In this document: piece after piece, positions 2,758-24,437 of the stretch
Numbering within the stretch: the first letter of the stretch is position 1
How the letters are laid out: each line of letters begins with the position of its first letter
DNA from: an uncultured Azospirillum sp.
GTDB taxonomy: Bacteria; Pseudomonadota; Alphaproteobacteria; RF32; CAG-239
Direction of reading: 5' to 3'
Length of the DNA stretch: 27,214 bases
Assembly: GCA_947383875.1 (NCBI GenBank)
Contig: CANDEX010000015.1
Span: forward strand, 1 to 27,214
The notes under the pieces: model-generated
Database searches by the model: none
What the model was told of the DNA's origin: nothing
The model's input: only the letters and a program-made list of their open reading frames with translations
Position numbers and translations under genes: made by a program

Positions 2758-3532
2758 CATCTTCAAAATCGTCAACTTCGCCTTCATATCCGATATCATC
2801 ATCTTCCATGTCATCACTGTGACCGATTAAGAGATTATCTTGTTCCATTTCAATTTTTTTGCGACGACCGCGGCGTTTTTTCATCGGTGTCTTCTTCTGC
2901 ATAGCACCAATAATATAATTACCGGCAATTTTATACAAATCCACCAAATGATTATTATACATATGGTCACCTTCTTCAATCAGGGCAAAATCTACCTGAA
3001 CATTGCGCTGCGCATTCAAGCGTTTGGCTAACGCAGCCACACTGGCCGGATTGACAATTTCATCAATTCCACCCTGCAAAACAAGACCGGAAGTCGGGCA
3101 CGGTGCCAAGAAAGTAAAATCTTTTTCATTCGCCGGCGGAGAAACCGCAATAAAATTGTTAATATCCGGACGACGCATCAACAGCTGCAAACCAATCCAT
3201 GCACCAAATGAATAGCCGGCAATCCAACATTGACGAGCTTCAGGATTAACAGACTGCAGCCAATCTAATGCAACCGTTGCATCTGATAATTCACCGGGAC
3301 CGTCTTCAAATTCCCCCTGTGATCGCCCAACACTTCGAAAGTTAAAACGCAGAACGGAAAACCCCAAATTCTGAAAACAGCTGAACAAGGAATACACCAC
3401 CTTATTGTTCATTGTACCGCCATATTGCGGATGCGGATGCAAAATCAACGCAATAGGCGCGCCCGGTTTATCGCTCTGATGATAACGGCCTTCCAAACGC
3501 CCTGCGTGTCCGTTAAATAAAACTTCAGTCAT
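2744..3532 (-). CDS. Alpha/beta hydrolase with charged C-terminal tail
   Basis: A 262-residue serine hydrolase of the small dienelactone-hydrolase-like type. The oxyanion region HPHPQYGG lies at about 32-39. The nucleophile elbow is GYSFG with Ser108, followed by a likely acid Asp157 (GGIDEIVN) and His190 (EEGDHMYNN), completing a catalytic triad. The substrate is unknown; the family includes esterases and peptidases. After the core, about residues 212-262 form an unusual tail: a basic patch (KKRRGRRKK) followed by a strongly acidic end (DDFEDDEEE). The tail looks disordered and may bind a partner or nucleic acid. The gene is divergent from cysE. Confidence 0.85.
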   Translation of the reverse strand: MTEVLFNGHAGRLEGRYHQSDKPGAPIALILHPHPQYGGTMNNKVVYSLFSCFQNLGFSVLRFNFRSVGRSQGEFEDGPGELSDATVALDWLQSVNPEARQCWIAGYSFGAWIGLQLLMRRPDINNFIAVSPPANEKDFTFLAPCPTSGLVLQGGIDEIVNPASVAALAKRLNAQRNVQVDFALIEEGDHMYNNHLVDLYKIAGNYIIGAMQKKTPMKKRRGRRKKIEMEQDNLLIGHSDDMEDDDIGYEGEVDDFEDDEEE

Positions 3533-3628
3533 ATTTGTCTCTTTTTTAACTTAAAATTTAAGAACAACTAAGTATATTACATTAATGCTATATAAATTAT
3601 TAACATTTTCAAAGGAATGTATCACAAA

Positions 3629-4321
3629 ATGGAATCAAAATACAAGCTTATTTTGCAAGACGTTGATGCGGTCATCGCGAGAGATCCCGCCACCAAAAAC
3701 CGCACTGAAGCCGTTTTATTGTCTTCTGGATTGCACGCCATACTCATTTACCGACTGTCTCATTATCTTTGGAAACGTGATTTCCACCTCACCTCCCGCA
3801 TTATTTCTCAAATCGGACGCTTTCTGACCGGTGTTGAAATTCACCCCGGAGCCCAGATCGGACGCGGCTTTTTTATAGATCACGGCATGGGAGTTGTTAT
3901 TGGCGAAACCACCGAAATCGGTGACAATGTCACTTTATATCACGATGTCACCCTCGGCGGAACAACGGTTTTTGACAAAAACGGCAAAGTCACAACCAAA
4001 CGCCACCCAACTATCGGCAACAACGTCATCATCGGTTCAGGCTCACAAGTTTTAGGTCCGATAAAAGTCGGCAACAACGCCAAAATCGGCTCTAACGCCA
4101 TTGTCACCAAAGATGTCCCGGCCAACACAACCGTTATGGGCTTAGCGGCTCATAAGGTCGAAGATTTAAAAAAGAACAGCAAAAAACAATTCTGCGCATA
4201 TGGAATAAATGGAGAAACTGAAGAATGCATTAATGCTGAAGACCTCTACAAAGAAATCAAAGCTCTGCGCAAAGAACTGGAAGAAGTTAAAGAAACTGCA
4301 GCCAAATTAAGCAAAAACTAA
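3629..4321 (+). CDS. cysE: Serine O-acetyltransferase
   Basis: CysE acetylates L-serine with acetyl-CoA to O-acetylserine, the carbon backbone for cysteine. The product has the short N-terminal helical part typical of the EpsC/CysE class, then a left-handed beta-helix built from hexapeptide repeats, with the conserved [16 protein letters not shown] and [16 protein letters not shown] segments and the loop TLGGTT. The C-terminal part (about 185-230) is a charged helix, likely coiled coil. I prefer the ATG at 3629; an upstream in-frame ATG at 3617 touches the AAAGGA site at 3611-3616 and leaves no spacer. No other cysteine gene is adjacent. Confidence 0.92.
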
Positions 4322-6193: not shown

Positions 6194-7543
6194 ATGCCTC
6201 TTGAAGACTTAACACACGCCTCCGCGGTTATTTTTAATTGGGATGCAAAATTAGTGGCTTCGACCATCTTGATTATCAGCTACCTGATACTCTTCACCGA
6301 AAAACTAAACCGCGCAGTCGTTGCCCTGTTGGGTGCCTGCTTTATGATTTTTGCTGGCGTTCTTACACAGGAAGCAGCTATCGGCGGAATAGATTTTAAC
6401 ACACTGGCTCTGTTGACCGGAATGATGATTATTGTAGGCATCGCCGAAAAATCGGGAATGTTTCAATATGTTGCCATCTGGGCAGTCCATCGCACCCGTG
6501 CCAACCCTCGCAGTCTGCTGTTCACTCTGGGATTGATTACCGCGGTATTTTCTGCGCTTTTAGACAATGTTACCACTGTTTTGCTGATTGTTCCCGTAAC
6601 TTTTCAAATTACAGAAAAACTTAAAGTCAACCCCTACCCTTACCTGATTATGGAAATCTTTGCCTCAAACATCGGCGGTACAGCAACCCTCATCGGTGAT
6701 CCTCCGAACATTCTCATCGGTTCTGCATTAAACCTGTCATTTATGGATTTTGTAAATGAATTAACACCTGTTGTTGCCGTAACCATGCTGGTTTTGATTC
6801 TGGCCTTTGACTTTGTATACGGCCGCAAATTGAAAACCAATCTCCGTAACCAGGCATTAGTTATGAAAGTAAAAGCTGTTGATGCCATTACTGATTGGAC
6901 GCTTTTAAAAAAAGCCTTATTTGTATTGGTTGCTGTCATCGGCGGCTTTGTTGCCGCAGAACACCTGCACGTTGCCAATGGAACGATTGCCATGTTCGGT
7001 GCTGCCGTTATGATGCTGCTTTATACTTTCGGTAACTCACACTCTGATCGCGATCATAAAATTGAATCTGCTTTTAATTTGGTAGATTGGACAACCATTT
7101 TCTTCTTTGCCGGTCTGTTTGCTATTGTCTACGGCCTGGAAGAAGCCGGCGTTCTGGAATTATTAGGACACAAATTCACTGAATTGACAGAAGGCAGCAT
7201 TGAAAAAACCACAATGTTGATTGTCTGGGTATCAGCCTTTGTTTCTACGGCTATTGATAACATTCCGTTTGTTGCCACCATGATTCCGCTGGTAAAAACC
7301 ATTGAAGCAGACATGGGCGGACGTGAAGCCATGATGCCTGTCTGGTGGGCTTTGTCTTTAGGTGCCTGCTATGGCGGAAACGGCTCATTAATTGCCGCAT
7401 CGGCAAATGTCATTGTTGCCGGTATGTCTCAACGCCATGGTGAACCTATTCACTTTGTTCGTTTTCTGATTTGGTCGTTGCCGGTAATGCTGGTCAGCGT
7501 AGGTATTGCAGCCCTCTATCTGCACATCCGCCACTTTATGTAA
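6194..7543 (+). CDS. ArsB/NhaD-like ion transporter, copy 1
   Basis: A 449-residue polytopic inner-membrane protein of the ion transporter superfamily (ArsB, NhaD, citrate transporters, mammalian P protein). Conserved signatures are LLDNVTTVLLIVPVTF, NIGGTATLIGDPPNILIG and, in the second half, STAIDNIPFVATMIPL and LGACYGGNGSLI; these are the two inverted-repeat helical hairpins that form the ion site. Substrate could be Na+/H+, an oxyanion or a dicarboxylate and cannot be told from sequence. GGAG lies 8 bases before the ATG. A close paralogue follows at 7654. A terminator separates the two. Confidence 0.85.
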   Translation: MPLEDLTHASAVIFNWDAKLVASTILIISYLILFTEKLNRAVVALLGACFMIFAGVLTQEAAIGGIDFNTLALLTGMMIIVGIAEKSGMFQYVAIWAVHRTRANPRSLLFTLGLITAVFSALLDNVTTVLLIVPVTFQITEKLKVNPYPYLIMEIFASNIGGTATLIGDPPNILIGSALNLSFMDFVNELTPVVAVTMLVLILAFDFVYGRKLKTNLRNQALVMKVKAVDAITDWTLLKKALFVLVAVIGGFVAAEHLHVANGTIAMFGAAVMMLLYTFGNSHSDRDHKIESAFNLVDWTTIFFFAGLFAIVYGLEEAGVLELLGHKFTELTEGSIEKTTMLIVWVSAFVSTAIDNIPFVATMIPLVKTIEADMGGREAMMPVWWALSLGACYGGNGSLIAASANVIVAGMSQRHGEPIHFVRFLIWSLPVMLVSVGIAALYLHIRHFM

Positions 7544-7566
7544 AACGGCAATTTGCCACATAACCG

Positions 7567-7603
7567 AAGCTCCTGATTTTAACACAAAATTAGGAGCTTT
7601 TAT
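7567..7603 (+). terminator. Rho-independent terminator after transporter copy 1
   Basis: AAGCTCCTGATTTT (7567-7580) and AAAATTAGGAGCTT (7586-7599) form a 14-bp stem with one G-U pair and a five-base loop, followed by a T-rich stretch. The second copy therefore probably has its own promoter in 7600-7650. Confidence 0.8.
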
Positions 7604-7653
7604 TATATAAAAAGCCTGTAATATATATTAATTTTAACGAAGGAATAAGAACT

Positions 7654-9000
7654 ATGCAGGCTGAAAACCTGGCTCAAGCCGCCAATTTAATTTGGGGCTT
7701 TGATCCTAAAGTAATAGCCACTGCCATTGTGGTAGTCTGTTACATTATCTTATTCACTGAAAAGCTGAACCGTGCCGTTGTTGCTTTACTCGGTGCCTGC
7801 GTGATGATTTTCAGTGGCATTTTAACTCAAGCAACCGCCTTGCAGGGAATTGATTTTAATACCATCTCCCTTTTGGTTGGAATGATGACAATTGTCGGCA
7901 TTTCCGAAAAATCGGGAATGTTTCAATATGTTGCCATCTGGGGTGTTCAACGCGTAAAAGCTAATCCGCGTGGACTGTTGGTTGTCTTAGCCGTAGTAAC
8001 AGCGGTTTTCTCCGCTTTTCTGGACAATGTCACCACCGTTTTGCTGATTGCACCGGTCACATTTAAAATCACTCAGAAACTGGATATCAATCCGTACCCC
8101 TATTTGCTTCTGGAAATCTTTTCCTCTAATATCGGCGGCACGGCTACCCTTATCGGCGATCCTCCGAACATCCTTATCGGTTCCTCTTTAAACTTGTCAT
8201 TCATGGACTTCCTGAAAGAGTTGACACCGATTGTTCTGGTAACCATGGCTGTTTTGATTTTGGCTTTCGACATCGTTTATCATAAACGTATCAAAACCAC
8301 GCTCCGTCACCAAGTTCAGGTTATGAAAATCAAACCGGCAGAATCAATCACGGATAAATCTCTGCTGATAAAATCTCTGTTTGTTCTGTTTATGGTTATT
8401 GCCGGCTTTATCTCAGCAGAACATTTGCATATTGCCAACGGAACCATTGCTATTTTCGGTGCTGCCGTACTTCTTTTGCTCTACACATTGGGCAACGAAC
8501 ACGGTGAACGCGACCATAAAATTGAATCCGTTTTCGGTGTCGTAGACTGGACAACCATCTTCTTCTTCTCCGGATTGTTCGTTATTGTTTACGGATTGGA
8601 AGAAACAGGCGTTCTCAAAATGCTGGGACAGATGTTCGTTAATCTGACCGATGGCAGCATTGAAAAAGCAACTATTCTGATTGTTTGGTCTTCTGCCATT
8701 CTCTCCAGCGCAATTGATAATATTCCGTTTGTTGCAACTATGATTCCCATGATTAAATCCATGGAAATTGAAATGGGCGGACGTGAAGCCATGATGCCTG
8801 TCTGGTGGGCATTGTCTTTAGGTGCCTGCTTCGGCGGAAACGGAACTCTTATCGGAGCCTCAGCAAACGTTATCGTCGCCGGCATGGCCCAGCGCGAAGG
8901 TCATCCGATTCACTTCATGCGCTTCCTGCTCTGGTCAATACCGGTTATGCTGGTCAGCGTAGGTTTGGCAACAGCTTTCTTATATATTCAATATTTTTAA
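7654..9000 (+). CDS. ArsB/NhaD-like ion transporter, copy 2
   Basis: A 448-residue paralogue of the preceding transporter, alike over the full length with the same signatures: FLDNVTTVLLIAPVTF, NIGGTATLIGDPPNILIG, SSAIDNIPFVATMIPM and LGACFGGNGTLI. Differences concentrate in the first 20 residues, the central cytoplasmic loop (HKRIKTTLRHQVQVMKI) and scattered helix positions. Long DNA tracts are identical between copies while the flanks differ, so gene conversion may be acting. AAGGAATAAG precedes the ATG. Specialised substrates or separate regulation would explain keeping both. Confidence 0.85.
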   Translation: MQAENLAQAANLIWGFDPKVIATAIVVVCYIILFTEKLNRAVVALLGACVMIFSGILTQATALQGIDFNTISLLVGMMTIVGISEKSGMFQYVAIWGVQRVKANPRGLLVVLAVVTAVFSAFLDNVTTVLLIAPVTFKITQKLDINPYPYLLLEIFSSNIGGTATLIGDPPNILIGSSLNLSFMDFLKELTPIVLVTMAVLILAFDIVYHKRIKTTLRHQVQVMKIKPAESITDKSLLIKSLFVLFMVIAGFISAEHLHIANGTIAIFGAAVLLLLYTLGNEHGERDHKIESVFGVVDWTTIFFFSGLFVIVYGLEETGVLKMLGQMFVNLTDGSIEKATILIVWSSAILSSAIDNIPFVATMIPMIKSMEIEMGGREAMMPVWWALSLGACFGGNGTLIGASANVIVAGMAQREGHPIHFMRFLLWSIPVMLVSVGLATAFLYIQYF

Positions 9001-17314: not shown

Positions 17315-17345
17315 AAAGCCCCTGCTCCGTCAGGGGCTTTTTTAC
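17315..17345 (+). terminator. Rho-independent terminator after the lipoprotein gene
   Basis: AAAGCCCCTG (17315-17324) and CAGGGGCTTT (17331-17340) form a 10-bp perfect stem with a six-base loop and six T residues. It may also stop transcription arriving from tatC. Confidence 0.9.
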
Positions 17346-17432: not shown

Positions 17433-18155
17433 TTAATCAGCACGATTTCTTTTGGGTCTTGCAAAAAATAAACCTGCTTCAAATAATAAATATGTCGGGA
17501 TGGATAGCAGCAACTGGCTGACAATATCCGGCGGCGTTAGCAAAGCTGCAGTAATCAGTATCCCCACCAATACATATGGCCTCTTATGTCTAACCGCCTC
17601 ATATGAAACCAAACGAGAACGAATCAACGAATATGTAATCAGCGGAAATTGAAACATCAGCCCGAAAACCACAGACAACCACAAAGCCATGGAAACAACA
17701 TTAGATATGCCAAACACAGCCTTTATATCCGACGTAACAAAACTTAATCCGAAATTTATCAGCAACGGTAAAATGAAAAAGATACAAAACAAAACCCCAC
17801 AAACAAACAGAAAACTGGAACTGACAACAATCGACTTAATAAATCTCCGTTCATTATCATATAAAGCCGGCAAAACAAAGTTCCATATCTGACGCGCCAT
17901 ATAAGGAAAACAGACAAGCAAATCCAAAACAACGGCTGTTTTTATTTGCAGAATAAAAACCTCCATTGGCGAAAAATAATTCAGCGCAACCTCGTGCTGT
18001 CCTATCATGATTTTTATCAATGCAGACATACAATAAGGTGCGGCCCAAAACATCGGTAATAATCCGATTCCCAGTGCCATAAAGCACCTAATCAGCATGG
18101 CTCTCAAAGCTTCCAAATGAGCCGTCAAACCCTCATCGTTGCCGCTCATACTCAT
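17433..18155 (-). CDS. tatC: Sec-independent translocase TatC
   Basis: TatC is the receptor for twin-arginine signals in the Tat pathway, which exports folded proteins. The 240-residue product keeps the family pattern: [15 protein letters not shown] at the N terminus, [33 protein letters not shown] and six hydrophobic segments, with PLITYSL and [20 protein letters not shown] near the end. It is shorter and less canonical than housekeeping TatC. Its ATG overlaps the tatA stop by four bases. It is the last gene of the redox operon that starts with a Tat-signal enzyme, which suggests a dedicated translocase; no tatB is seen in the window. Confidence 0.9.
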
Positions 18156-18361
18156 TTTCCGGATTTTGTTTCTTCGTCCTCTACAGCTTTATCTACCGTT
18201 TCTTTCAACTCTTTCGCTTCATTCTGCAGCATCTCTTTAGCTTTTTTATATTCATATTGAGCTTTACCGAGTGCTTTGGCTAATTCCGGAATACGTTTGC
18301 CTCCAAACAACACCAACACTACTACCAAAATCAAGGTTATTTCAGTTAAACCTAATGACAT
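18152..18361 (-). CDS. tatA: Sec-independent translocase TatA
   Basis: 69 residues: a short N-terminal membrane helix ([17 protein letters not shown]), the hinge [16 protein letters not shown] and an amphipathic helix, then a charged tail ([19 protein letters not shown]). This is the classic TatA/E shape that forms the translocation pore with TatC. GAGGAG precedes the ATG. It lies ten bases after the polyferredoxin gene and overlaps tatC by four bases. TatB, which is longer and has a Glu-rich tail, is absent here; TatA may serve both roles as in minimal TatAC systems. Confidence 0.92.
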
Positions 18362-18371
18362 TATTTTCTCC

Positions 18372-19640
18372 TCATAAAATTCTTTGTTTATCGACAGCCA
18401 GGATTGTCACAGCCTTAACCGGACATACAACTTGACAAGTTCCGCACCCGATACACTCGTCTGCATTAATCTGCGGAAATTCCCCCTCTTCTTTACGAAT
18501 AGCTTCACGCGGGCATTTCATAACACATAATCCGCATTTGACACAAACAGCATCATCAATAACAGCCAAACCTATTTGTGTTTCTCGCTTTTCATCAAGA
18601 GACAGTCTTTCAATAGCCCCGGAAGGACACACTTGAGAACATTTATGACAATCATAGTCACAGAAAGCATCCTTATAGTCAAGATGAACGGCGGGATAAT
18701 CCCCATCCGCTTTTTTTATAATCTTCATCGGACAACTGACCACACAGAGATTACAATTCAAACAGCGATTGGCAAAAACTTCTGCATTTTTAGCTCCCGG
18801 AGGCAAAATAACCTGTTTTATTTTTGCGCCCACAGCTTTCCCTAAACTTATCCCGCCTTTAACTGATAAAAGAAAAAGAGCAGCTGCTCCGCCGACCAAA
18901 AATTTTCTTCTTCCGGGACAAAAAACAACGTCCTCCGCTTTCTTAGCCCCATATTGCAACGCACTTTTATGACAAGAAGCAAAACATCTAAAACACTTAA
19001 TACAAGTCTCGTTATTAACTGTCCCGTTTTTATAATCAATACTCCCGGTCGGACATTTTGAAGCACACGCTCCACAAGAAACACAACTATTTCGTTCAAT
19101 ATAAATGCGATTAACGGCATATCTGGAAAGAAGCCCCAATACGACCCCGACCGGACAAATATCAGAACAAAACAACCGTCCTCTAAACCAAACCAAAACA
19201 ACAAGCAAAGCCAAAATCAATAATCCGAAGACAGCTCCGCCGGCTGCTGAACCAAATAAAGAATAAGGATCAATCAACCTCATCAACCACACAGTTCCGC
19301 CCACGAGGGATCCCCAAACAATTGCCGCAATAAAATACTTATACGGCTTATCTGCGTGATAAGAGCCTCTGCGGCGGAAGAGCATCATCAGCCCTTCCTG
19401 CAGCAGCCCCAGCGGACAAAGCGTTGAACAGTATATTCGCCCCAAAAACAATGTCAGCAGTAATAAACCGCACAACAAAATAACCGCTGTCAAAGAAAAA
19501 TCCGTCACCACCCGCTGCACTAAAGCGACCAATTGCAAATCAAAAATCTTCAAAGGATAAAACTGTCCGGAAAAGGCCAAAACAAAGAGTATCCCGGCCA
19601 ACAAAGCAATACTGCCGCGAATATAACGTATTTTTTTCAT
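18372..19640 (-). CDS. NapH-like membrane polyferredoxin with internal Tat-type segment
   Basis: 422 residues. Four membrane helices in the first 165 residues carry two CxxxCP motifs (Cys71/75 after GRIY; Cys158/162 after GRLF), as in NapH/MauN quinol-linked proteins. Two [4Fe-4S] motifs follow (Cys186-196 and Cys213-223). Then comes [17 protein letters not shown] (242-258), a twin-arginine-type segment with a hydrophobic stretch, and four more cluster motifs (Cys293-303, 327-338, 366-376, 396-406). I infer that the last domain is moved across the membrane by Tat, making a wire of six clusters from inside to outside. It lies between the flavodoxin gene and tatA. It resembles a fusion of NapH with a NapG-like protein. 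Confidence 0.88.
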
Positions 19641-19659
19641 TAATCACCCTTTTCCGGCT

Positions 19660-20235
19660 TTAGAATTTGAACCCTAAATCTTTCAACCACCCGGAAATAC
19701 CCAAAGTACGGCTGCTATAACCAACCCAAGGTTCTGAAACAACGTTACAACCTTTGCACTGCGCTGTCAAATCCGAAACGGTATTTTGAACACCGCCACC
19801 GCCGTGCGTAATAAAAGGAATAACCTTTTTACCCGACAAATCATAACTCTCCAAAAAGCTGCTGACTTGCGGTGTAATTGTTCCCCACCAGTTAGGAGAA
19901 CCGATAAAGACCACATCATACTGGGCTATATCCGCGACTGAAGTTGTCAACTTAGGACGATAACCATCAGCAATTTCTTGCTTTGCCTGAACAGTCATCG
20001 GACGATATTCTTCAGGATAACTTCCTTCCGTTTTAATTTCAAAAATATCTCCGCCGATTTTCTCTTGTATAGCTTCAGCCACTTCTTTAGTGTTTCCGCT
20101 GTAGGAATAATAAGCAACCAAAACCTTAGAGCCGGACATTTCTGCCGCGGTGTTACCCTCTTCGGCCGAAACATTTACAGCCGAACCAAATAATGCTGAA
20201 AACATAACCGTTGCAGCTGATACTATTTTTTTCAT
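19660..20235 (-). CDS. Exported flavodoxin
   Basis: 191 residues. A signal peptide (MKKIVSAATVMFSALFGSA, cleavage near VSA) precedes a flavodoxin domain with the FMN phosphate loop YYSYSGNTKE (about 42-51), IGSPNWWGT (aromatic side of the flavin) and PFITHGGGG. This is the class of flavodoxins found in gut bacteria beside aldo/keto reductases. Most flavodoxins are cytoplasmic; an exported one should accept or deliver electrons in the envelope. The signal lacks twin arginines, so it is Sec-like, which is odd because FMN must then be added outside. AAAGGAG precedes the ATG. It lies 19 bases before the polyferredoxin gene. Confidence 0.88.
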   Translation of the reverse strand: MKKIVSAATVMFSALFGSAVNVSAEEGNTAAEMSGSKVLVAYYSYSGNTKEVAEAIQEKIGGDIFEIKTEGSYPEEYRPMTVQAKQEIADGYRPKLTTSVADIAQYDVVFIGSPNWWGTITPQVSSFLESYDLSGKKVIPFITHGGGGVQNTVSDLTAQCKGCNVVSEPWVGYSSRTLGISGWLKDLGFKF

Positions 20236-20258
20236 ATTTTTCTCCTTTATGTTAGAGG

Positions 20259-21497
20259 TTAAACTTCAAAAGTCTTAGCGACTTCTTTCATCCATTTACT
20301 AATTTCAATATGTTGCGGACAATGCTTCTCACACAAACGACATCCGATACAACTTGACGCTTTGCCATGAGATTTTGCCAAATTGGCATAATAAACCCTT
20401 TGCGCATTAAACGGCTTATCAGAACGTTCCTGTTTTTCAGCATTATACAAAGCAAAATAATCCGGGATAGCAATTTTCATTGGGCAGAATTCAACACAAT
20501 ACCGGCAGGCCGTACAAGGAACCGACACCAAAGAATGAAGCGTTTTAACAGCATTTTCAACAACTTCAAGCTCTTCTTTATTCAAAGGCTTAAAGTTCTG
20601 CATATATGAGGTATTATCTTCCAGCTGCGCCATATTGGACATTCCGCTTAAAACCATCATGACCCCCTCCAAACTGGCGGCATAACGTACCGCCCAGGAA
20701 GCAACGGACATTTGAGGTTCAGCATCCTTGAAAATCTTTTCTACCTCAGGAGGAACCATAGCCAGACTTCCTCCCTTAACCGGTTCCATCACAATAACCG
20801 GTTTTCCGTATTTTTGAGCAATCTCATAACACCTGCGGCTCTGAATACTGGCATTGTCCCAATCAATATAATTAATTTGAAGCTGCACGAATTCAACTTC
20901 CGGATGCTCTCGCAATACCTCTTCCAACAACTCCGGAGTATCATGAAAAGAAAAGCCGATATGTTTAATCTTTCCTTCTTTTTTCTTGTCTTGAATAAAC
21001 TTAAAACTATCATATTGACGCGCCTTGCCGATTGTATTGGCATTAACATTATGAATCAAATAATAGTCAAAATATGAAAGTCCTGTTTTTTCCAGCTGTT
21101 TATTGAAAATATCTTCCTGTTGTTCCTTACTCGATAAATATCCGACAGGCAGTTTACTGGCAACGGTAAATTTATCTCGGGGATGCCTTTTAACCAACGC
21201 CTCTCGCAAAGCAACTTCACTTTCATACCCCATATACATCCAAGCCGTATCAAAATAACTGAAACCGCGCTCCAAAAACATATCCACCATTTTATTCAGA
21301 GTCGCGTAATCTATTGAAGTTTGATCTTTGGGATCTTTCAACGGCAGACGCATAAAACCAAAACCGAGTTTGTTATTAGGATTAATCCGCGCTCTTACCG
21401 CATCAGTCACGGCAACAGTCTCCGCCAAAGTCAGCTTTGGCAAAGCTGACAACGCAAACGCGGCCAATGTACTCATCAAAAATTCACGTCTGTTCAT
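20259..21497 (-). CDS. Tat-exported aldo/keto reductase with ferredoxin domain
   Basis: 412 residues from the ATG at 21497, which has AAAGGAG upstream (the open frame reaches back to 21527). MNRREFLMSTLAAFALSALP is a Tat signal with the RRxFLM core. The aldo/keto reductase barrel shows the catalytic tetrad Asp83 (FDTAW), Tyr88, Lys115 (VASKLP) and His149 (YLIHN). The C-terminal part has two [4Fe-4S] motifs, CTACRYCVEFCP and CIGCRLCEKHCP, as in the ferredoxin-linked class of the family. With iron-sulfur electrons the enzyme may not need NAD(P)H, which is scarce in the periplasm. It is the first gene of the redox operon. The substrate is unknown. Confidence 0.88.
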   Translation of the reverse strand: MNRREFLMSTLAAFALSALPKLTLAETVAVTDAVRARINPNNKLGFGFMRLPLKDPKDQTSIDYATLNKMVDMFLERGFSYFDTAWMYMGYESEVALREALVKRHPRDKFTVASKLPVGYLSSKEQQEDIFNKQLEKTGLSYFDYYLIHNVNANTIGKARQYDSFKFIQDKKKEGKIKHIGFSFHDTPELLEEVLREHPEVEFVQLQINYIDWDNASIQSRRCYEIAQKYGKPVIVMEPVKGGSLAMVPPEVEKIFKDAEPQMSVASWAVRYAASLEGVMMVLSGMSNMAQLEDNTSYMQNFKPLNKEELEVVENAVKTLHSLVSVPCTACRYCVEFCPMKIAIPDYFALYNAEKQERSDKPFNAQRVYYANLAKSHGKASSCIGCRLCEKHCPQHIEISKWMKEVAKTFEV

Positions 21498-21525
21498 AAG
21501 CAGCTCCTTTACCTGTACACAACCC

Positions 21526-21556
21526 ACTATAATTTTTAGAGCTTACTCTAAGTCAA
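21526..21556 (-). promoter_or_regulatory. MerR-type promoter/operator of the Tat redox operon
   Basis: On the minus strand TTGACT (21556-21551) and TATAGT (21531-21526) are 19 bp apart, the long spacer that MerR-family activators correct by bending DNA. Inside it lies a perfect dyad TTAGAG-CTTA-CTCTAA (21536-21551). The sequence resembles operators of the aldehyde- or thiol-sensing MerR regulators. No merR-type gene is present in the window. Predicted start is about 20 bp before the ribosome-binding site region. Confidence 0.7.
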
Positions 21557-21793: not shown

Positions 21794-23488
21794 ATGTTTC
21801 CCAAATTAAGTAATGAAGTCAAAGCTGTTTTTGACAAGACAGTAAAAAAATTATCGGCCCAAAACACCTTGTTTGTTATGACGGCGTTTTATCCGCAACG
21901 CGGCGGCATTCTCCAGGATGTTGTTAATGCAGGCGGTCAAGCCGTTATTGCCGGCGGCGCACCGAATCAACAACTGTTCAAAGGTATTCCCCAATACAGC
22001 CCGGGATATGATACGACAGGTATCAGCGAAACCCCGAAAGAAATTTATGAAATTGTCAAAGCTCTTCCTGAAGAACTTGTCAGCGGACACCCGGTTGCCT
22101 TATTTGTAGAAGCTCCGGTCGGCAACCTCTGGTCAAACAATTTGAGAGTGAAAAAAAAGGCAAACATTATCTCTTCTAACGAGCAAAACCTGCGTCTCTT
22201 TTTTGAAGAAAAAACCAACTTGCAAAAAATTCTTACAGAAGCAGGTCTTGAAGACTGTTTCATTCCTTCTGAAGTGGTCAAAGTCGAACAGTTAGATGCA
22301 GAGAAAATATCTTCTCTTTACACTCAATACCAAGGCAACAACGGCAAAGTCGTTATCCAATCTTGCGGTTCTGAAAACTTTGAAAGCGGTGGCGGCAAAG
22401 GCACCAGTATTGTATCCTCCGCCGAAGAATTCGCTCAAAACATCGTCCAACATAAGGGTGATGTCAAAGTCGCACGTTTTATTGACGGTTTCTGCAGCAA
22501 TATGTCAATGTTCGTCGGCAATACAATTGCCGATAAAGAGCACGGCGGAGTCAAAAAAGGGCATTTATCCCCTGAAGACAACGCTTTTTCGGAAGACACA
22601 ATTTACGCGCTGTTACAGCGGGGAAAAGAAATAGGTATCAGCAAAGACAAAACCATTGTGCTGACGGCCAGAGCTTCCTTAAAAGCCTTGGGCGACAAAA
22701 ACCTGACTAAAAGTTCCTCTAACGGTGTCGGCAACTCTCTGGGATATGAGTTTCCTGACGAAATCAATGCCAAAGTTTATGAAATCAGCCAAAAGCTCGG
22801 AACATTAATGGCACAATGCGGCAAAGTAGGCCTTTGCGGTGCTGATTTAATTATCGATTCTGATAACCATATCTGGATTAATGAGGTCAATGACCGGCAG
22901 CAAGGCCCGACCGAACAGCTGAGCCTTGATGCTGAAAATGCCGGCTTAATCGGCATCCACCGCTTGGCATTTATCAGCAACTATGCCGACTGTTCAGCAC
23001 CGGAAACACAAAAACTGTTGTATCGGCTTCAACAAAATGCCGAAAACCTTTATCGGAAATCATTGGAAAGCGACGGTAGTTTTTACATCAAAATGATGGG
23101 AAAACAAGCAGGAACAGCCACCTCAATCATTGACCTGAAACCGGGTATCTACGCTATCGACAAACAAGCAGACGGCAGCTGGAAATGGGATTTTTCTCAA
23201 AGCTACGGCAAGAGTGACAATATTGACCTCAACCAAAATCGGATTTACGCCGGTTTATCCGGAGTCAGCCTCAAAAAAGGACAACAAGTGCCTTCCGGCG
23301 CACAAATTCTGCGGATTGTCGGCAAAGCTAAAAACGGCTCATCGCCTTTTAGCATTCAAGGGAATAAAGTTGCGTTGAATAAAAAATGGCTGCCGATTGT
23401 AAATAGTTTATATTCTGATATCTTTGGAAAAGAATACAATCATCAACAAACCATATTGATGAATAAACACAAGTCATCCCAAAGGTAA
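21794..23488 (+). CDS. ATP-grasp family ligase-like protein
   Basis: 564 residues. The N-terminal part to about 120 has a Rossmann-like fold. The ATP-grasp core follows: KVVIQSCGSEN with Lys185, the glycine-rich loop SGGGKGTSI (198-206), VARFIDGFC (226-234) and the metal site LCGADLIID plus WINEVNDR (Asp351, Glu364, Asn366). Such enzymes form amide or peptide bonds through an acyl phosphate. The C-terminal region (about 390-564) is not standard; it has DLKPGIYAIDKQADGSWKW and GVSLKKGQQVPSGAQILRIV, perhaps a substrate-recognition barrel. The next gene starts four bases after this stop. Substrates cannot be told from sequence. Confidence 0.8.
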   Translation: MFPKLSNEVKAVFDKTVKKLSAQNTLFVMTAFYPQRGGILQDVVNAGGQAVIAGGAPNQQLFKGIPQYSPGYDTTGISETPKEIYEIVKALPEELVSGHPVALFVEAPVGNLWSNNLRVKKKANIISSNEQNLRLFFEEKTNLQKILTEAGLEDCFIPSEVVKVEQLDAEKISSLYTQYQGNNGKVVIQSCGSENFESGGGKGTSIVSSAEEFAQNIVQHKGDVKVARFIDGFCSNMSMFVGNTIADKEHGGVKKGHLSPEDNAFSEDTIYALLQRGKEIGISKDKTIVLTARASLKALGDKNLTKSSSNGVGNSLGYEFPDEINAKVYEISQKLGTLMAQCGKVGLCGADLIIDSDNHIWINEVNDRQQGPTEQLSLDAENAGLIGIHRLAFISNYADCSAPETQKLLYRLQQNAENLYRKSLESDGSFYIKMMGKQAGTATSIIDLKPGIYAIDKQADGSWKWDFSQSYGKSDNIDLNQNRIYAGLSGVSLKKGQQVPSGAQILRIVGKAKNGSSPFSIQGNKVALNKKWLPIVNSLYSDIFGKEYNHQQTILMNKHKSSQR

Positions 23489-23492
23489 TAAT

Positions 23493-24437
23493 ATGACAAC
23501 AGACTTCTCTATTGAAAAATTGCCGATATTAACCGCTGGCGGCGGAACGGAAATAAACCTTTATATTCACCGCTATCGTGCAACCGCTTCCGGAAAAAAA
23601 ATCTATATCCAGGCGGGGCTTCACGGCGGAGAAACTGCACAATGGAGCTTAAAACGACTACATGATGACCTGCTGAACAACCTGCAAAGCGGTGAAGTCT
23701 GCATTGTTCCTTACGCTAATCCTCTGGGCTGGCTGCAGCGAACATACTATTCCACTGCCGGAAAATTTTCAGCAATGGACGGAAGAGACATCAACCGCCT
23801 ATTTCCGGGTAAAACCGATGGTGAAATGCAAGAACGCATTTGCGCTGCTTTAATGTCTTTGGCACAAAAAAGCGATTTGGTTGTTGATTTACACACCTCT
23901 AAAATGAGCACCCCTTTTGCCATTTACACCAAACCAGAATATGAAAAATATATCAAACTTTGCGGTTTCCCTTATAATCAATATTCTGATGACGCCTCAA
24001 TCCCTTCCCTCCATGGCACATTTAACGCAGCATTAGATCGCGCAGGAATTGATAATATAACAATCGAATGCGGCGGCCATGATGAATATGATAACAATAA
24101 AATAACAGCAGTATTTTCAGCCCTTAAATCCCTGCTTTCCGGATTGGAAATAATTTCACAAACAGAAACACCGAACACAAATATATATGCCTTTGAAAAA
24201 CGCCTGAAAATATTTGCACCAACTGCCGGATTATTGAAATTGAACAAAAAACCCGGAGATAAAGTCTCCACTGGAGAATTTATCGGAGAGGTACTCTGCG
24301 CACAAAATCTGACAGAGACACAACCTATCACATCTCCCGTTACCGGCATTATTCACACAATTATTCCCAGCCATATCTGCTGGGAAGGAGACATCGCCTG
24401 CGAAATCATCCCTTTGGATAATCTCCACCATTTTTAA
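23493..24437 (+). CDS. AstE/AspA-type zinc amidohydrolase
   Basis: 314 residues of the succinylglutamate desuccinylase/aspartoacylase (M14-like) family. The zinc site is intact: His44 and Glu47 in AGLHGGE and His134 in VDLHTS. The substrate motif GRDINRLFPG (97-106) and the catalytic Glu192 in ECGGHDEYD are present. A C-terminal barrel-sandwich domain (FAPTAGLLKLNKKPGDKVS...) is typical. These enzymes remove an acyl group from an amino-acid amine or cut a carboxyl-terminal residue. The gene lies four bases after the ATP-grasp gene, so ligase and hydrolase should act on one pathway. No signal peptide is seen. Confidence 0.85.
   Translation: MTTDFSIEKLPILTAGGGTEINLYIHRYRATASGKKIYIQAGLHGGETAQWSLKRLHDDLLNNLQSGEVCIVPYANPLGWLQRTYYSTAGKFSAMDGRDINRLFPGKTDGEMQERICAALMSLAQKSDLVVDLHTSKMSTPFAIYTKPEYEKYIKLCGFPYNQYSDDASIPSLHGTFNAALDRAGIDNITIECGGHDEYDNNKITAVFSALKSLLSGLEIISQTETPNTNIYAFEKRLKIFAPTAGLLKLNKKPGDKVSTGEFIGEVLCAQNLTETQPITSPVTGIIHTIIPSHICWEGDIACEIIPLDNLHHF

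Follow-up and report, generated by a model that had tools for sequence, protein, structure and literature searches.

Why should a short run of redox genes carry a Tat translocase of its own? The question is raised by a five-gene cluster (Table 1) in the window, the whole 27,214-nt stretch of DNA analysed here. The cluster encodes an aldo/keto reductase (AKR) with ferredoxin motifs, a flavodoxin, a membrane polyferredoxin (PFD), TatA and TatC. ORF coordinates bear out the arrangement described in an earlier note on this DNA, with five minus-strand genes separated by gaps of 23, 19 and 10 bases and a 4-base overlap, and Pfam bears out the gene identities (Aldo_ket_red, 171 bits, plus 4Fe-4S domains; Flavodoxin_4, 100 bits; Fer4_5 with many Fer4; TatA_B_E; TatC). 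The most plausible start of the AKR is the ATG at 21497, preceded by AAAGGAG. The single promoter proposed in that note has fared less well, as the region contains 17 hexamer matches of the same quality (9/12) against 11.0 +/- 4.0 in shuffled sequences. A single transcript across the five genes is plausible. The hairpin 3' of tatC reads, by eye, GCCCCTG-acggag-CAGGGGC and is flanked by A and T runs; in a scan, a portion of it was picked up as a plus-strand feature (17324-17337). A search of viral contigs matched 21 stretches, none of which was confirmed.

Table 1. Features of the redox cluster and its flanks, by position in the window
Feature	Coordinates	Strand	Basis or remark
AKR; twin-arginine signal MNRREFLMS at the N-terminus, two 4Fe-4S motifs at the C-terminus	20259..21497	-	Pfam
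Flavodoxin_4 protein, Sec-like signal	19660..20235	-	Pfam; signal read from sequence
Polyferredoxin (PFD), NapH-like membrane half and C-terminal part with four 4Fe-4S motifs	18372..19640	-	
tatA	18152..18361	-	Pfam TatA_B_E 59 bits
tatC	17433..18155	-	Pfam TatC 180 bits; NCBIfam tatC 156.8 bits
Promoter-like hexamers (weak)	21529..21556	-	9/12 matches; not clearly above chance
Terminator-like hairpin, ~90 bases past tatC	17319..17340	-	by eye

A conserved module of polyferredoxin, TatA and TatC

The five-gene cluster represents one version of a conserved module built around PFD-TatA-TatC, which occurs in gut Alphaproteobacteria and Gastranaerophilales, that is, in two phyla. In a cross-locus search, 71 of 80 related loci had the three core genes side by side, and the exact tight five-gene order of the window recurs in 5 of the 80; this recurrence rules out a gene order peculiar to this contig, the finding that the earlier note had said would weaken its case. 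Nine of the 80 loci show no TatA plus TatC behind PFD: three break off within 900 bases (after TatA in L013 and L042, after a flavodoxin frame in L050), L078 has TatA alone, and L036, L044, L047, L054 and L061 have neither. The AKR is absent from 18 of 73 PFD genomes, so the end of the chain is not fixed. AKRs with a twin-arginine (RR) signal occur in both phyla, at 38-40% identity. Among open-licence papers we found none that unites Tat, polyferredoxin, aldo-keto reductase and flavodoxin, and a search on Gastranaerophilales and TatC returned nothing on topic, as judged by title.

The predicted layout of PFD resembles NapH fused to NapG, and a twin-arginine motif lies inside it. The two arginines are residues 244-245, ahead of a fifth hydrophobic stretch (248-266), and stand in this position in 79 of 81 aligned rows; the exceptions are L058, which has a gap, and L061, which has a KRR offset by one. 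The earlier note's reading did not include this motif. Dual Sec-Tat polyferredoxins are marked by weak hydrophobicity of the Tat-dependent stretch; with a peak hydropathy of 1.74, the fifth stretch is here the second least hydrophobic, not the least (1.93, 2.64, 1.67 and 2.78 for the other four). Sixteen cysteines, from C293 to C406, form the four outer 4Fe-4S motifs, and each of these cysteines is conserved in all, or all but one, of the 79 near-full-length rows. Scores against the NapH equivalog (85.4 bits, cut-off 234) and the NapH/MauN subfamily (85 bits, cut-off 213) fall far below their cut-offs, so that quinol use by PFD is a guess by likeness; the fold model (pLDDT 63) is too poor for structural comparison.

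Dual Sec-Tat membrane proteins are already known, and a polyferredoxin of this kind has been shown to require both Sec and Tat (PMC5449189). The delta proteobacterium MLMS-1 polyferredoxin described there (Q1NSB0) shares with PFD a NapH-like membrane half, a conserved RR immediately ahead of the fifth helix and a NapG-like outer half with four 4Fe-4S clusters. It differs in that three inner clusters are predicted for it, whereas PFD has two four-cysteine motifs and two CxxxCP pairs; the passages of PMC5449189 on this protein do not mention adjoining tat genes, nor did the terms aldo or flavodoxin come up in the paper. The layout of inner and outer ferredoxins is also that of the NapGH quinol dehydrogenase, but PFD is a single fused protein and its cluster has no nitrate reductase gene.

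The Tat translocase and its probable clients

The window TatC scores above the NCBIfam cut-off (132.7), while the window TatA exceeds the Pfam cut-off (58.8 bits against 21) and falls short of the NCBIfam tatAE one (50.4 against 53.9). In 39 related genomes, a set that does not include the window's own, TatC is single copy in 36, and one TatA/B/E family gene is found in 32 and two in 7. Is this, then, a general housekeeping Tat system that merely sits beside one of its substrates, with redox genes that are otherwise ordinary? Its status as the sole TatC in most relatives would fit such a system, as would the occurrence in some genomes of other Tat-signal proteins (FMN reductases, ferredoxin-less AKRs and DUF362 proteins) and the precedents in Bacilli, as far as covered in PMC3827258, for tat genes adjoining their substrates. 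However, a count over 125 genomes from one alphaproteobacterial order, uncorrected for kinship, gives 70 with both TatC and PFD and 51 with neither; the other 4 are discordant, 1 of them having TatC without PFD. In 66 of the 70 genomes with both, the two genes are no more than 1 kb apart. A housekeeping exporter would not be expected to track one client so closely. Moreover, a single clade in our tree (support 100/99) unites the operon TatCs from the two phyla and excludes the stand-alone TatCs found in G040 and G027; the latter group with those of other Alphaproteobacteria. We regard this purely housekeeping reading as rather unlikely.

These data bear on two further points of the earlier note. 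It had raised the possibility that the tat genes are the only ones of the genome and sit here by chance; the first part agrees with the relatives, in which TatC is mostly single, while the co-occurrence with PFD makes chance placement unlikely. Its suggestion that the operon supplies the translocase its own products need stands in so far as the redox genes are conserved together with tatAC, and fails for the flavodoxin, which by sequence is not a Tat substrate because it has a Sec-like signal without twin arginine. A "dedicated" export machine is not supported as stated, since the sole Tat has other likely clients in some genomes; exclusive service to the module is at most something that we infer. 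The TAT_signal profile is too weak for counting all Tat substrates. TatAC likely serves PFD itself as well as the AKR, given that PFD has an internal twin-arginine motif in a NapH-NapG-like frame, like the published dual Sec-Tat polyferredoxins. That the exporter is usually the sole Tat and is nearly confined to PFD-bearing relatives suggests that chain and exporter work as one unit. The closest parallels are the Bacillus subtilis phoD-tatAd-tatCd and ywbN-tatAy-tatCy loci (described in PMC3827258), where TatA and TatC are encoded next to a substrate without TatB, an arrangement that the present cluster appears to share. In contrast to these, the pair studied here belongs to Gram-negative lineages, is usually the sole Tat and would have redox clients, one of which is a membrane protein; the Alphaproteobacteria in the survey table of the same paper mostly possess TatB.

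A proposed electron chain and the cofactor of the reductase

Together, PFD-TatA-TatC, the iron-sulfur AKR and the flavodoxin likely form a chain from the membrane quinone pool to an extracytoplasmic carbonyl compound, with its Tat-dependent parts probably exported by its own TatAC. Sec would insert the first four PFD helices and pass the RR-marked fifth to TatC, which would bring the NapG-like half across with its four clusters. The same TatAC would export the folded, cofactor-loaded AKR by its N-terminal RR signal, and the flavodoxin would leave by Sec and bind FMN outside. Electrons from quinol could then pass the NapH-like half and next the outer clusters on their way to the flavodoxin and the two AKR clusters. 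Because no free NAD(P)H should be available outside the cytoplasm, the AKR would hold on to a nicotinamide-type cofactor and have it re-reduced in place. The flow of electrons, its direction and the carbonyl substrate are what we infer from these parts.

In 36 aligned rows the AKR residues D83, Y88, K115 and H149, which we take to be the AKR catalytic tetrad, are invariant, as are the cluster cysteines C328, C331, C334, C338, C383, C386, C389 and C393. The barrel is modelled with a pLDDT of 83 and its best PDB matches (Foldseek) are AKRs; compared with AKR11C1, the NAD(P)-binding stretch of other AKRs is retained. The flavodoxin, and in some related loci FMN_red proteins, recall the extracytosolic Flavodoxin_4 and FMN_red electron carriers that in the account of PMC11334425 bear an ApbE-attached flavin in an insertion located between the first strand and the first helix. 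At this site, however, the flavodoxin of the window reads straight through, as KVLVAYYSYSGNTKEVAEAI, and by eye has no insertion with a flavinylation motif.

Which cofactor the AKR would hold is complicated by the genes for the nickel-pincer nucleotide (NPN), a tie that the earlier note's reading did not contain. There is no lar gene within the window, but in linked loci larB-larC-larE and a likely nickel permease accompany the AKR; LarB, LarC and LarE all score above the NCBIfam cut-offs in the alphaproteobacterial loci L001 and L029, and L067 has LarC1 without LarC2. In the 125 order genomes, again uncorrected for kinship, larC occurs in 32, all of them with the AKR (0/68 of those without it), and lies within 3 kb of the AKR in 29 of the 32. 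In the G026 phylum sample the close AKR type is found in 40 genomes, the matching kind of larC in 41 and both in 39; a second AKR type, in 9 genomes, has no larC above cut-off in any. LarA is the known NPN enzyme family, for which PMC11796402 reports a mass shift near 451 Da, and none scored above cut-off in the 39 related genomes or in 73 larC-positive genomes, 29 of which have sub-cut-off matches (E up to 1). The set shares LarB, LarC, LarE and the likely permease with the LarABCE system, but lacks a LarA above cut-off, and its constant companion is the putatively exported AKR. Three genomes (G006, G007 and G016) have larC away from the AKR, in a larB-larC-larE-permease island among unrelated neighbours, apart from a gene that follows the island in G007 and is, by eye, metallo-beta-lactamase-like and similar to gene cluster 12; a search for an alternative NPN user beside larBCE in these three genomes gave no lead.

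Three readings of this linkage can be weighed. The AKR itself might be NPN-dependent, LarB, LarC and LarE making the nickel cofactor, which would be loaded in the cytoplasm, exported by Tat and recharged by PFD. The confinement of larC to AKR-positive order genomes, its proximity, the joint occurrence in the G026 sample and the lack of LarA above cut-off all point this way. Against them, 25 of the 57 AKR-positive order genomes have no larC and no residue convincingly marks their AKRs (4 mild positions); the NAD(P)-binding stretch is kept whereas NPN is a mononucleotide; LarC2 is absent in 9/9 Gastranaerophilales loci; and the Gastranaerophilales phylum has 146 other genomes with larC above cut-off, of which G150 alone shows an AKR match at 1e-60. 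We consider this dependence improbable, and with it the prospect that the exported iron-sulfur protein would be the first NPN enzyme outside the LarA family, with NPN replacing NADPH and PFD recharging it from the quinone pool. The same retained stretch and larC-free genomes would fit an exported AKR with tightly bound NADP, in the manner of the Zymomonas glucose-fructose oxidoreductase (a 1999 work in the reference list of PMC7317946), the lar genes serving another enzyme of the same pathway. We hold this to be somewhat less likely than not, and it would leave the close larC-AKR linkage and the NPN user unexplained.

Finally, the NPN user could be a DUF362 protein, a distant relative of LarA. 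In some loci the module has DUF362 proteins nearby, several of which bear Tat signals; one matches Lar_N weakly (15.0 bits at E 0.014, against a cut-off of 23.3), and sub-cut-off Lar_N matches fall repeatedly at positions 143-186. However, DUF362 proteins are found in 18 of 32 larC-positive and 28 of 93 larC-negative order genomes (p 0.011, uncorrected for kinship), an association that disappears within AKR-positive order genomes (p 0.60), and 14 larC-positive order genomes have no DUF362. On these last two results we reject the idea that DUF362 drives the larC pattern in the order, and a DUF362 NPN user appears very improbable.

Implications for Tat and nickel-pincer biology

The module offers a probable two-component Tat of a Gram-negative lineage. 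Lineages that have either both PFD and the translocase expected to complete it, or neither, make dependence of one on the other testable by simple genetics. According to PMC11796402, larB, larE and larC occur without larA in about 15% of genomes, and the NPN user there is an open question in print. The lar linkage described here bears on that question, giving the hunt in these gut lineages a few linked genes to start from. If an NPN-dependent AKR were true, it would mean a nickel-organometallic anaerobic respiration on carbonyl compounds of the gut.

The gene cluster and its relatives

Sequence and Pfam placed all five genes as the earlier note had described them (Table). As to the single promoter it proposed, promoter-like matches in the region were not clearly above chance; a single transcript for the five genes is plausible. 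The neighbouring genes divergent to the operon (window 21794-24437) are a 564 aa frame that matches no Pfam family and, after it, an AstE/AspA-like protein, and at 6194-9000 lie two adjoining CitMHS-family transporters (292 and 301 bits), likely a tandem pair.

Table. Genes of the redox cluster in the window
Gene	Positions	Strand	Features
AKR (iron-sulfur aldo/keto reductase)	20259-21497	minus	start ATG, N-terminus MNRREFLMS
FLD (flavodoxin)	19660-20235	minus	Sec-like signal
PFD (polyferredoxin)	18372-19640	minus	
tatA	18152-18361	minus	
tatC	17433-18155	minus	

Patterns from a 17-PFD alignment, searched against GTDB species genomes, found 181 relatives, and the best 80 loci were kept. By title, these come from uncultured Alphaproteobacteria or proteobacteria (one being Azospirillum sp. 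CAG:239), from Gastranaerophilales, from one Candidatus Scatousia and from a few unplaced bacteria. PFD is followed by TatA and TatC in 71 of these best 80; in L013 and L042 the contig stops shortly behind TatA and in L050 behind a flavodoxin frame, TatA alone is seen in L078, and neither is seen in L036, L044, L047, L054 and L061. An AKR scoring >250 bits to that of the window occurs in 47/80 loci and a flavodoxin >110 bits in 52/80. The five-gene order is not unique to this contig: the tight window order is found in 5/80 loci (L014, L017, L023, L035, L048). Orders vary, with AKR-FLD upstream of PFD, behind TatC, or with other genes interposed. In loci that carry the Gastranaerophilales label or cluster with such loci, the order is (FLD-)AKR-PFD-TatA-TatC, and eight of the AKRs there, 38-40% identical to the window AKR, carry RR plus a lipoprotein-like cysteine.

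Tat genes, their probable clients and the polyferredoxin

Among 125 genomes of one alphaproteobacterial order, TatC over cut-off was found in 71, PFD at 1e-40 in 73 (G050 and G057 carry fragments of it and G111 a split gene), both in 70 and neither in 51; weak TatC matches below cut-off in G047, G049 and G095 were scored absent. Only G040 has TatC without PFD, and PFD occurs without TatC in G050 (fragment), G089 and G114 (L013, a 3450-base contig ending after TatA). The two genes are at most 1 kb apart in 66/70 genomes and on separate contigs in G057, G077, G103 and G113. The Fisher value of 3e-30 takes no account of kinship among the genomes and should not be read as the probability of independent events.

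The earlier note had asked after a second full Tat set and supposed a translocase dedicated to the operon. In the 39 genomes reached from the loci there is usually one TatC (36/39 at E 0.001, 37/39 by cut-off) and one TatA-family gene (32/39). The module is likely not the exclusive client. Searching 12 genomes with Pfam TAT_signal (E up to 10) returned 22 matches, with none in one genome. Twelve had E <0.12: six are the module AKR or PFD by coordinates (G006, G007, G017 twice, G023 twice), five resemble FMN reductases or ferredoxin-less AKRs in sequence (G001, G006, G014), one of them confirmed as FMN_red, and the last is a 123 aa frame in G032 without assignment. DUF362 proteins with Tat signals are also present. 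Upstream of the AKR of L001, at 3504-3728, a second strong TatA gene lies beside a Tat-signal FMN reductase; that genome has a single TatC.

A tree of 45 TatCs compared 35 operon TatCs (of 71 at hand) with ten others, from Escherichia, Vibrio, Priestia, four named Alphaproteobacteria and the stand-alone genes of G027, G040 and G030. The operon TatCs of both phyla form one clade against these ten outgroup rows (support 100/99), though long branches in the tree, Priestia above all, may join falsely; the stand-alone TatCs of G027 and G040 group with the named Alphaproteobacteria (98/89). We take the clade to be a TatC lineage carried by the operon and common to both phyla, which would stand in place of the missing ordinary alphaproteobacterial TatC.

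The first part of PFD is NapH-like (85 bits, under the equivalog cut-off of 234) with four hydrophobic stretches, followed by RRKF (244-247), a fifth stretch (248-266; hydropathy peak 1.74 vs 1.93, 2.64, 1.67 and 2.78 in the other four) and a region bearing four 4Fe-4S motifs. RR fills its alignment columns in 79/81 rows (80 loci plus window), the exceptions being L058 (gap) and L061 (KRR, shifted by one). This NapH-NapG-type layout is shared with the MLMS-1 fusion protein, whose assembly is reported to need both Sec and Tat (Tooke et al., 2017, PMC5449189). By likeness of layout PFD would be of the same dual Sec-Tat kind, in which case two of the three redox proteins (PFD and AKR) would need Tat. 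G018 has two polyferredoxins (L036 and L074), one with tatAC behind it and one without, which makes it a natural setting in which to ask if both are served by a single Tat.

Nickel-cofactor genes and the reductase

The larE, larC and larB genes for synthesis of the nickel-pincer nucleotide (NPN) occur in 30/80, 29/80 and 28/80 loci, respectively. A putative NicO-like permease, recognized by eye and matching no Pfam or NCBIfam family, occurs in 20/80, and L067 has a CbiM-type permease between larC and larE. The window holds no lar genes; its AKR's nearest relative, that of L001 (88%), adjoins larBCE. In the alphaproteobacterial order larC is present in 32/125 genomes, all AKR-positive, and in 0/68 AKR-negative ones; among PFD-positive genomes it accompanies 31/55 with AKR vs 0/18 without (p 1e-5). 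Since larC is within 3 kb of AKR in 29/32 but within 8 kb of PFD in 23/31, it follows AKR.

The phylum of G026 was represented by 292 genomes, with types defined after E-values were seen. The close AKR type (E <1e-180) occurs in 40, the Gastranaerophilales kind of larC (E from 1e-67 to 1e-87, in genomes of at most 2.5 Mb) in 41 and both in 39; eight genomes with AKR fragments or distant matches were excluded from both AKR types. A second, related type (E 1e-143 to 1e-153) occurs in nine (G380, G278, G401, G386, G332, G307, G388, G286, G191), 0/9 with larC over cut-off (in G307 the match falls short of it), and these nine could serve for comparison on the NPN question.

Despite this association, it is improbable that AKR is itself an NPN-dependent enzyme. 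larC is absent from 25 AKR-positive genomes of the order. In the AKR tree, larC-less rows nest within the larC-positive range, as a group of 11 (88/75; five known to lack larC, six without determined status) plus L030, L035 and L048; this fits loss of larC, and L021 in that group retains a larB frame, but it equally shows AKR persisting without larC. No residue distinguishes the AKRs of larC-less genomes, and AKR keeps the stretch that binds the nucleotide in NAD(P) enzymes; to judge by the title of Halbig et al. (glucose-fructose oxidoreductase, Zymomonas; 1999, cited in PMC7317946), bound NADP has precedent. Among 146 other genomes of the phylum with larC over cut-off, a match to AKR at 1e-60 was seen in G150 alone, so AKR cannot be the general NPN user. 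Furthermore, LarC is its first part alone (241-269 aa), beside LarB and LarE, in L055, L062, L065, L066, L067, L069, L073, L075 and L079; LarC2 was not found in the stretch of any of these nine Gastranaerophilales-type loci, whose product may differ from NPN.

LarA, the known NPN enzyme family, was over cut-off in 0/39 and 0/73 genomes (overlapping sets), with matches below cut-off (E up to 1) in 29 of the 73 (best 3.6e-4); the same search exceeded cut-off in Thermotoga maritima and Methanosarcina acetivorans. About 15% of genomes are reported to have larB, larE and larC without larA, their NPN user unidentified (PMC11796402). DUF362 proteins, several with a twin-arginine signal, lie near the module at L029:3628-4581 and in nine more loci; in one of them a weak Lar_N match under the cut-off (E 0.014) hints that DUF362 and LarA are distantly akin. 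An exported metallo-beta-lactamase-like protein (by eye) recurs beside lar genes or AKR in 12 loci and at L082:10798-11889, its gene lying between larE and the permease in, for example, L038, L071 and L074; it is a possible further nickel-cofactor partner.

A proposed electron path

By family likeness, electrons would most likely pass from quinol to the inner part of PFD, on to its outer clusters, then to the flavodoxin and the AKR clusters, and finally to a carbonyl acceptor outside. We found no description of this combination of Tat, polyferredoxin, AKR and flavodoxin in open-licence papers, and know of no earlier one. Two of its elements are already known separately, TatAC encoded beside a substrate in Bacilli (PMC3827258) and the dual-targeted polyferredoxin. 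Known electron carriers include extracytosolic proteins of the Flavodoxin_4 and FMN_red families to which ApbE attaches the flavin (PMC11334425); in contrast to such Flavodoxin_4 proteins, the window flavodoxin is without the insertion, and therefore would bind FMN non-covalently. We conclude that these genes make up a conserved redox module that encodes an exporter of its own.
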